From a virus: a DNA stretch of 23,154 nt. Position numbers and translations under genes: made by a program. The stretch is taken from the IMG/VR virus record IMGVR_UViG_3300008448_000685, positions 1 through 23,154 of that record; one strand, written 5' to 3'. Below the pieces are notes generated by a model. It ran no database searches, was not told the origin of the DNA, and saw nothing but the letters and a program-made list of their open reading frames with translations. This document shows positions 20,698 to 22,821 of this stretch, one piece after another; position 1 is the first letter of the stretch, and every line of letters begins with the position of its first letter.

Positions 20698-20827
20698 ACC
20701 CACCTTGTCTCAAGCCCTGAAGCGCGGTTTTGACTGCGCTGGCATCCCAACCCGTGGCCTTAATTAGCTGGGGCTGTGTCATCGGTTTGGTTTGGAGGAG
20801 TTGGTAAACGGTCATGCGGCGACTCAT
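20459..20827 (-). CDS. Winged-helix protein with overprinted C-terminal half (122 aa)
   Basis: The start overlaps the helicase stop as ATGA. Residues 5-62 form a neat winged helix: MTVYQLLQTKPMTQPQLIKA, DASAVKTALQGLRQGGYV, then a wing with RGGVYAVAK. It would bind DNA or act as a small adaptor in replication. From about residue 64 the sequence becomes Arg/Gly-rich with poor codon bias, while the other frame carries the 95-aa ORF. The stop makes ATGA with rusA, so full-length translation is still plausible. The original gene may have lost a stop codon and run into its neighbour. Confidence 0.6.
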   Translation of the reverse strand: MSRRMTVYQLLQTKPMTQPQLIKATGWDASAVKTALQGLRQGGYVTRSGSARGGVYAVAKNRSYGGAVAHRSSRVARLARRQCELAKWMARLRLGGGQGNGHDMAGVEGQVSGAHEGAEVTA

Positions 20828-21765
20828 GCGCTCAGCCTTGGGTTTTCGTACAAAGCCAATGGCGGCTGCCCTGCCTCTCCAACGAACTGCATGCTCGGAC
20901 GGTCAAACCACAGTCCGATGGTTCCCTCCCAATCGCCGTTGCGCTGCTTGTCGCAAATCAGCAAACAGTCGTGCTCTTTCTCGCGGTCAGTCTTGCCGCC
21001 CTCTTTGGCGCGTTCCTTGGCCTTGTTACGCCAGACGCTGATCACGTTGTCCACCTGATCGGTGATCGAACCTGAGCCCTTGTAGGCGTACTTATTGGGC
21101 TTGCTGTCTTCGCTCTCAGGCTTCTTGATGTGGTGCACCAAGTGAACGTGGATGCCGTGATCGCGGGCAATGGCCGTCAGCTCGTCAACAAACGCCTTCT
21201 GGCCGTTGTAGTCATCCTCGCCGGCCACGCACTTCATGAGGCTGTCAATGAAGACATGGGTGATGCCCCTCTCTTTGGCGCAATACCTGACCACGGCAAA
21301 GACTTGCCGGGCCGTCACCGTGCCCTGCTGGTCGTACAAAAACAGCTTGCCGTTTGTCCAGTCCCTGAACTGCTCATAGCTGTCGATCAGGCCGGCGCTG
21401 CTGTCCATGTCTGGCCCTGCCCATTGCGTGGCCATGCGCTCCAAGGTCTTGATCGGCTTCATCTCAAAGCTAGCAATGCAGACCTTTTCACCCTGAGCGC
21501 AAAGGCTGAGCGCGACTTGTCCGGTCACCAGTGACTTGCCGTGGCCGTTGGCACCGCCCCAAACCGTGACCTCGCCCGGCCTGAACTGGATTCGGTTGTG
21601 CGTCTTCGCCCACGGCATCAGGGTGTGCTGTGACCGCACCGGGTTTTTGATGCGGTCAATGAGTTCTTGCACCCAAATCGATGCGTCTTTGACCTTTTGC
21701 TGCGCCTCTGTCTCGCGCTCGTATAGCGAAAAATCGATGTCGTCGCTGTCGATGATTTCAGCCAT
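20824..21765 (-). CDS. DnaB/Twinkle-type replicative helicase domain protein
   Basis: 313 aa from the ATG at 21765, chosen over the in-frame 21792 because GGAG lies five bases upstream. The RecA-like core is complete: Walker A GANGHGKS (71-78), EMKP after a strand (101-104), Walker B THVFIDSL with D174, HLVHHIKKP (208-215) as sensor, YKGSGSITDQVDNVISVWRN, and an end QRNGDWEGTIGLWFD. No primase or zinc domain is present, so it is a helicase core alone, loaded perhaps by the DUF1376 protein upstream. It should unwind DNA at the phage fork. Confidence 0.9.
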   Translation of the reverse strand: MAEIIDSDDIDFSLYERETEAQQKVKDASIWVQELIDRIKNPVRSQHTLMPWAKTHNRIQFRPGEVTVWGGANGHGKSLVTGQVALSLCAQGEKVCIASFEMKPIKTLERMATQWAGPDMDSSAGLIDSYEQFRDWTNGKLFLYDQQGTVTARQVFAVVRYCAKERGITHVFIDSLMKCVAGEDDYNGQKAFVDELTAIARDHGIHVHLVHHIKKPESEDSKPNKYAYKGSGSITDQVDNVISVWRNKAKERAKEGGKTDREKEHDCLLICDKQRNGDWEGTIGLWFDRPSMQFVGEAGQPPLALYENPRLSA

Positions 21766-22105
21766 GTGCTCTCCGATGTAGCCAAACGTCATTGCCTTGA
21801 ACCGAAACCACCGCAGCCGCGCCAGCCTTCACCAAGGCATCAAAAACGCGCTTGGCGCGGCTTTCAGACCGCTGGCAGTCCAGATGCACCTCCAAGCCCA
21901 CCACGCAGCGCAGATCAAGCGTCTCGGGGATGTCCTCGCGGGTCATGCGGATGCAGGCGAAAAAGCGCTGCGCGTAGGGGTTGGGTTGTTCGTGCCACTG
22001 CGCCGCGGCTTGCACGCAGATCGTCGCGTCGTCGTCGTAGACCATCACGCACTGAGGGCGCTTGCCAGCCCGGCGCATGCGCAGCAGCGGTTCGTGGCCG
22101 GTCAT
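21758..22105 (-). CDS. Hypothetical protein between replication genes (115 aa)
   Basis: ATGA overlap with the DUF1376 gene before it, and an eight-base overlap with the helicase start after it. Sequence: basic N-terminus (RMRRAGKRPQCVMVYDDDAT), central PYAQRFFACIRMTREDIPETLDLRCVVGLEVHL, then RAKRVFDALVKAGAAAVVSVQGNDVWL. It looks like a compact alpha/beta fold. Tight coupling to replication genes suggests a part in DNA replication, but no domain is recognised. Confidence 0.75.
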   Translation of the reverse strand: MTGHEPLLRMRRAGKRPQCVMVYDDDATICVQAAAQWHEQPNPYAQRFFACIRMTREDIPETLDLRCVVGLEVHLDCQRSESRAKRVFDALVKAGAAAVVSVQGNDVWLHRRAHG

Positions 22106-22821
22106 ACGATCACCCCGACTTGATCCGACCGAGCCGCACCTGGCCGGCCAGTGGCCTTGTCCCGGTCGTGCCAGCTCGCCTTGAACCCGGCCCAGTTGCT
22201 GCCCACGGCGTGCGCCACCGTCTGCGCCGCGTCAAGGCCAACCTTCAACCCCTCCGCCTTCGTCTCCGCCCAGGCCGTGGCCGTCAGGGGCAAGCGCTTG
22301 GCTTTCCGCAGGACCAGCCAGTCCGATGCCACCTGCCGATCGACACCCTCTGCCACCAAGTCTTTGACCGAAAGCGGCTTGGCAGTCGGCTCCGCGATAG
22401 CGGAACGACCACTGTCTTCTTCTTTGGTTATTGGTTCTTGGTTACTGGGAGCATTGCCTTCGCTATGCGTTCGCATTGCGTTCGGTGATGCGTTCGCATT
22501 GCGTTCGGTATGCGCCCAGCGTGCTTCAGCCGATGCCTTCGCTTTGCGTTGCTTGTCCTTGAACTGTTCAATTTCTTGATCGCATCTGGACTGCCGCCAT
22601 GCGTCCGCATCTCGCACAAAGAACTCTTGCAGAACCGCCGCCAAGGCTTCGCGCTCTTCTTTGGATCGAACACCAATCAGCCTCGCCGCCTGATCGTCAG
22701 GAATAGGGCCTTCGCGGGTGTAGTACACGTCCATCAAGCGCGTGAAAACACCGTGCTCCAAAAGCGATAAGTGGGCAGTGTTTCTGAGGTAGTCACCAAT
22801 GTGACGTGGGTAGAAGTTCAC
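22102..22821 (-). CDS. DUF1376 replication-linked protein
   Basis: 239 aa. The N-terminus MNFYPRHIGDYLRNTAHLSL, then HGVFTRLMDVYYTREGPIPDD, is the DUF1376 signature, a winged-helix-like domain found in phage replication modules before DnaB/DnaC-type genes. Residues 80-135 are a low-complexity Asn/Ala/Arg/Thr link (ERNANASPNAMRTHSEGNAP) that is encoded by iteron-like DNA repeats. The C-terminal part ends with LVLRKAKRLPLTATAWAE and VGSNWAGFKASWHDR, as in related initiators. I infer an initiator or helicase-loader role. ATGA overlaps join it to both neighbours. Confidence 0.88.
   Translation of the reverse strand: MNFYPRHIGDYLRNTAHLSLLEHGVFTRLMDVYYTREGPIPDDQAARLIGVRSKEEREALAAVLQEFFVRDADAWRQSRCDQEIEQFKDKQRKAKASAEARWAHTERNANASPNAMRTHSEGNAPSNQEPITKEEDSGRSAIAEPTAKPLSVKDLVAEGVDRQVASDWLVLRKAKRLPLTATAWAETKAEGLKVGLDAAQTVAHAVGSNWAGFKASWHDRDKATGRPGAARSDQVGVIV
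22466..22509. repeat. Iteron-like tandem repeats within the DUF1376 gene (possible origin)
   Basis: An exact 21-bp unit occurs at 22466-22486 and 22489-22509. Each holds two TGCGTTCG motifs, giving four motifs spaced 11 to 12 bp, about one helix turn. A partial TGCG follows. The 23-bp period is not a multiple of three, so the repeat is not explained by repeated amino acids. A stretch rich in A and T (about 22405-22448) lies beside it. Confidence 0.6.

Follow-up and report, generated by a model that had tools for sequence, protein, structure and literature searches.

The locus raises the question of why a phage gene of the DUF1376 family should carry a tightly spaced array of short repeats inside its coding sequence. 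The gene occupies 22102–22821 on the minus strand of the window, by which we mean the whole 23,154-nucleotide stretch of viral DNA analysed here, and encodes, from a GTG start, a protein of 239 amino acids whose residues 2–85 match the Pfam family PF07120 (E=1e-28, 100 bits against a cut-off of 30.1). Judging from comparisons between sequences, we consider it very likely that positions 22416–22514 are a replication origin embedded in the gene, where the DUF1376 protein would bind iterons through the end of a helix, open a neighbouring tract and bring in the helicase.

The repeat array in the DUF1376 gene is confirmed. It extends over 22451–22514 (plus strand) with a period of about 11 bp and contains four exact copies of TGCGTTCG, starting at 22466, 22477, 22489 and 22500, with a one-mismatch copy, TGCCTTCG, ahead of them at 22455. 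The start-to-start distances of 11, 12 and 11 bp agree with the helical-turn spacing described in the earlier note, as does the position of the array in the linker-coding part of the gene. The same note had placed the four motifs in two exact 21-bp units; four copies and two exact units are indeed present, but the identical unit, ATGCGTTCGCATTGCGTTCGGT, is 22 bp long and found at 22465–22486 and 22488–22509, an offset of 23 bp. Inside each unit lies a perfect 12-bp palindrome, ATGCGTTCGCAT (22465–22476 and 22488–22499), and the palindromes of the array carry ATGCG half-sites. No 8-mer other than TGCGTTCG reaches four occurrences inside 60 nt anywhere in the 23-kb window.

Relative to the coding (minus) strand, the starts of the exact copies fall in frames 0, 1, 1 and 2, so that all three frames are used and an amino-acid repeat cannot account for them. 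When synonymous codons were exchanged inside the gene, leaving the protein unchanged, none of 5000 shuffles produced four identical 8-mers within 60 nt, and the longest direct repeat, 22 nt in the actual gene, reached at most 14 nt. Across the DUF1376 family, repeats with non-triplet offsets were likewise observed 148 times against 23 expected. These results support the view that the repeats go beyond what the protein sequence forces and that selection acts at the DNA level, as had been argued from their non-triplet period. That the repeats could merely follow from selection for a disordered and repetitive linker of Asn, Ala and Arg is suggested by the linker itself, which is rich in N, A, R and T and of low predicted confidence; the use of three frames and the excess over all 5000 codon shuffles largely refute this reading, the family-wide non-triplet periods weigh against it too, and we regard it as hardly credible.

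The 30-bp segment at 22416–22445, next to the array, has the lowest nearest-neighbour stability of 23,124 positions in the window; it is the proposed unwinding element and bears out the A/T-rich stretch reported beside the motifs. A 7-bp tandem repeat, TTGGTTA (22424–22448), overlaps this segment. In 68 of 108 homologues, compared with 24 expected, the least stable 30-mer of the gene also falls inside the linker. Read on the coding strand, the 7-bp repeat of the tract is often AACCAAT or AACCAAG, and it is present in many genes with differing iterons.

The AlphaFold2 model of the window protein comprises a confident, winged-helix-like N-domain (the Pfam domain, codons 1–85, 22567–22821, minus strand), a long helix of residues 78–108, a linker of mostly low confidence at about 109–151 and a confident C-terminal helical domain of residues 152–224 (22150–22368, minus strand). 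The iterons and the A/T-rich tract are coded directly past residue 102 and across this linker. Searching the PDB for the fold of the DUF1376 model returned no E-value below 0.1 and only generic MarR-like and methyltransferase matches with low TM-scores. Among the PHROG families, the protein matches those named 'primosomal protein' and, at its C-terminus, those named 'replication initiation O-like', with residues 103–223 matching phrog_678 of the latter kind (E=2e-12). Two further members of the family, L005 3001–3489 and L012 3001–3504, encode short DUF1376 proteins of 163 and 168 amino acids, which keep iterons and A/T tract but apparently lack the C-terminal domain, so that helicase recruitment would have to differ there.

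Downstream of the DUF1376 gene, the minus strand encodes a DnaB-like helicase of 322 amino acids (20824–21792; PF03796, E=5e-15, and PHROG helicase families), the proposed partner, beyond which Pfam and PHROG matches indicate RusA- and NinB-like genes. A protein of 115 amino acids (21758–22105) is encoded between the genes of the initiator and the helicase, a position in which one might look for a helicase loader; it matched neither Pfam nor PHROG, and no separate helicase loader gene was identified in the window. Another contig, L002, carries an identical DUF1376 gene preceded by a divergent repressor-like gene and a small regulator-like gene, whereby the gene order resembles a lambdoid early region. 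In named phages, the gene after DUF1376 is often annotated as helicase or helicase loader.

In the mechanism we propose, the DUF1376 protein would bind the array of iterons, probably as a dimer, and would read their sequence through residues 88–102, where the long helix behind the winged-helix-like domain comes to its end. Several protomers aligned on one face of the DNA could then strain and open the adjacent 7-bp-repeat tract, while the C-terminal domain would recruit the DnaB-like helicase encoded downstream. Since palindromic sites suit any dimeric DNA-binding protein, and since the comparative data speak for protein-DNA matching rather than for replication as such, the iterons might instead be autoregulatory operators through which the protein controls transcription of its own operon, with replication starting elsewhere. 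The array, however, lies about 300 nt into the gene and not at a promoter, it is coupled to the unstable 7-bp-repeat tract, and the adjoining helicase or loader genes reproduce the layout of known in-gene origins, which makes an operator role improbable in our judgement.

To see how far the arrangement extends, we gathered DUF1376 genes from viral contigs, bacterial genomes and E. coli K-12; because a query alignment of 15 N-domains offered no stretch conserved enough for scanning the collection, single-protein queries were used. Clustering at 75% N-domain identity gave 92 divergent clusters, whose linker 9-mer repeats were compared with 200 codon shuffles each. In 58 of the 92 the repeats exceeded all shuffles (floor p=1/201), and 71 reached p≤0.05. 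Control segments, evaluated with 100 codon shuffles each, reached p≤0.01 in 1 of 91 cases for the N-domain, 2 of 76 for the C-terminal part and 4 of 91 for other ORFs of the same loci. An enlarged set of loci, re-clustered at 80%, yielded 79 of 108 at p≤0.01. Roughly a quarter of the clusters, mostly from bacterial genomes, fail the repeat test; these may represent decayed prophages, longer linkers or other functions.

Exact repeats of at least 8 nt occurred at an offset of 11 in 31 genes (2.9 expected) and of 22 in 17 genes (1.5 expected), with further peaks near 33–34 and 44–45; offsets of 11, 22, 33 and 44 are, on this pattern, the helical-turn spacing of putative iterons. Offsets of 7 (42 genes, 2.4 expected) and 14 (26 genes, 1.8 expected) stem from the A/T-rich tract. 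Comparing the linker DNA of many DUF1376 genes, for which the earlier note had suggested an alignment, returns repeats at the same site with 11/22/33-bp spacing, and the comparative evidence agrees with its expectation of a widespread origin type. Its idea that an Asn/Ala/Arg linker is what DUF1376 proteins have in common did not hold: place and spacing are common, whereas the iteron sequence varies from phage to phage and tracks the protein helix instead. One DUF1376 protein, L008 3001–3573, has a C-terminal part that by eye reads like an HNH nuclease, and its gene lacks linker repeats (p=0.66), while a neighbouring DUF1376 gene in L008 does carry them; the former may belong to the family and yet play no part at an origin. 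In Vibrio phage 1.183.O, an annotated CRISPR spacer match (L391 1861–1890) falls in the DUF1376 gene, at or near the iteron region.

Which part of the protein goes along with the iteron sequence was assessed by scoring gene pairs that share repeated words for each N-domain column, controlling for overall N-domain identity and permuting genes. In these comparisons, whose permutation tests take no account of phylogeny, iteron identity is predicted by residues 90, 91, 93, 94, 97, 98, 101 and 102 (window numbering) at the end of the long helix, while residues 92, 95, 96 and 99 show a near-zero signal, a pattern that marks one helix face. Column by column, residues 52–67, the usual recognition helix of a winged-helix domain, gave no iteron signal, and this helix was rejected as the specificity element; neither the other parts of the N-domain nor the C-terminal domain proper tracked iteron identity. 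Overlapping codons were also rejected as the source of the helix signal, as it persists when only iterons at least 6 codons past the N-domain end are counted. The iterons are hence best read as being recognized by the helix end at codons 88–102 (KDKQRKAKASAEARW, 22516–22560, minus strand), a proposal based on this co-variation and on a check with held-out phages.

Residues 97 and 98 divide the family into classes. Class S-A goes with iterons GCGAACGC/GCAATGCG, class A-N with TCTGAAATCAGA, class I-A with ACGAATCG and class A-G with CGTTCAAC, the last including YdaU of the Rac prophage with GTTCAAAC; class N-G (NGKKGG) has AACCCAG iterons with the core AACCC. Few genes represent the classes G-A, with GCCCCC-like iterons, and A-A, with ATGCT-like iterons. 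A second structure prediction, made for an N-G class protein, ends the long helix at residue 100, and a helical reading head may therefore not hold in every class.

The class also matters between close relatives. Pairs that are 60–85% identical over residues 1–86 share iteron words in 90% of cases if they belong to the same class, as opposed to 19% if they belong to different classes; the effect persists down to 25% N-domain identity, including pairs at 25–40%, and is not significant for pairs below 25%. An example is the pair L096 and L084, which are 87% identical over residues 1–86 and differ in both helix ends and iterons: in one of them a GKRGAAKRW helix end goes with C-rich iterons, in the other SKAGKAS goes with CGTTCAAC. 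DNA identity between the two runs at about 70–87% up to nt 270, drops to about 50% at 271–360 and returns to 73–80% at 361–420. Such a profile would fit a short cassette, made up of helix end and iterons, having been exchanged, although faster divergence of nt 271–360 would look similar. As helix end and iterons are coded within about 100 bp, a single exchange would replace both, and initiator and origin would stay matched. We lean, with some reserve, towards a short, swappable recognition helix (about residues 88–102) that obeys a readable code, in which residues near 94, 97 and 98 set the iteron core and a helix-plus-iteron cassette of about 100 bp is exchanged as a unit, switching the specificity of initiator and origin in one event. 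Apparent exchange of this block between phages could also be taken to mean that the repeats are a recombination-promoting or other mobile or packaging sequence devoid of a replication role; such an account leaves the helical-turn spacing, the adjacent unstable tract and the match of iterons to helix residues unexplained, and we give it very little credence.

The correspondence was carried over to 22 named or isolate-derived phages, for which iteron cores had been recorded before the sequences were fetched. Their hosts include Acinetobacter, Vibrio, Pseudomonas, Moraxella, Bordetella, Xanthomonas, Thalassomonas and Escherichia, and further sources are a green sulfur bacterium, a cyanobacterium and environmental records. 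Linker word counts led to the right helix class in 14 of 20 held-out phages (4.6 expected by chance, p=2e-5), in a test that is partly blind, since the precise words to be counted, the mismatches allowed and a wider stretch for L382 were fixed afterwards, and that includes L394, a near-identical YdaU relative of the training set. Two misses concern class I-A, seemingly owing to the likeness of the 7-bp tract to AACCCAG. A 6-mer classifier trained independently assigned 12 of 20 (4.1 expected) and, in leave-one-out, 60 of 83, its lower performance relative to the fixed cores being due mainly to the heterogeneous A-G class in the training set. In the codon-shuffle test, 19 of the 22 held-out linkers reached p≤0.03.

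These data bear on a further reading, in which linkage alone produces the match between helix and iterons, and another host or phage protein reads the iterons at what would still be an origin. The helix codons do adjoin the iterons, so linkage may contribute to the co-variation, and just two columns of the C-terminal alignment score above 3, both of them in the linker on the 3' side. Against this, the signal is confined to a single helix face, being close to nil at residues 92, 95, 96 and 99, and it persists in distant pairs (25–40% N-domain identity) and in held-out phages; we think the linkage reading unlikely. With recognition by the helix end as the preferred explanation, the DUF1376 proteins, a widespread phage family, appear to act as replication initiators whose binding sites lie within the gene that encodes them. 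What is new, going by the compared genes, is that the iteron sequence follows helix residues 90–102, coded next to the iterons in the DNA. A large family so far annotated as unknown would thereby gain a function, and in many phages of Proteobacteria and other groups, temperate as well as lytic, a sequence rule would show where to look for the origin. A reader coded beside its target sites would mean that protein and target can change together. If binding confirms the correspondence of helix and iterons, it would represent a natural specificity code and would explain why the origin is kept in the initiator gene, as target and reader travel together through recombination.

Among known systems, iteron plasmids offer a general parallel, in that the initiator binds direct repeats that adjoin an unwinding element; their iterons usually have a period of roughly 20–22 bp and are located outside the rep gene. 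Among the open-access papers searched we found none tying DUF1376 to origins or iterons, and an earlier prediction in subscription papers is possible. Origins within the initiator gene are known from phage lambda and Stx phages (PMC7466680). For SPP1, the origin oriL was mapped within the initiator gene of G38P, and for ORF20 of the staphylococcal phage 80alpha, which has a loader gene next door, an in-gene origin was inferred from failed complementation (PMC5499656). Both parallel the embedded origin proposed for the window; they belong to Gram-positive replisome-organiser families and are likened to DUF1376 by layout. The Rac prophage of E. coli K-12 has an active origin, oriJ (PMC3945230). 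Its DUF1376 gene, ydaU, lies beside ydaV and has linker repeats at the floor p value, which suggests a possible place for the Rac origin; it differs in having an A/T tract without the AACCAA 7-bp repeat.

The closest likeness is to lambda O and ori-lambda with their Stx-phage variants, where iterons and an A/T-rich tract also lie in the initiator gene between a DNA-binding N-domain and a C-terminal domain. The lambda-like layout that the earlier note had recognized, iterons and an A/T-rich segment inside the likely initiator gene, is found here, with iterons between N- and C-domains and an adjacent unstable segment, and the comparative evidence speaks for it; a helicase partner gene is present as well. 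Lambda has its helicase-loading gene next door, the window a DnaB-like helicase after one 115-aa gene, and palindromes occur in the iterons of both. The four annotated 18-bp lambda iterons (39034–39118 in gene O) are spaced by 20, 24 and 23 bp, as opposed to the period of about 11 bp, the 7-bp-repeat unstable tract and the wide divergence of iterons between relatives seen here. Furthermore, the lambda O N-domain belongs to PF04492 (Phage_rep_O), whereas the window protein matches only PF07120. The best reading is that the DUF1376 protein would work like lambda O without being a member of that family by its N-domain. Its C-terminal domain is O-like by way of one bridging family, phrog_678, while BLAST of lambda O against the window protein gave no direct similarity. 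In phrog_678, the N-terminal part matches lambda O and the C-terminal part matches DUF1376 proteins including YdaU. This amounts to a natural swap of domains between two types of initiator and suggests that either N-domain comes joined to the same kind of C-terminal domain.
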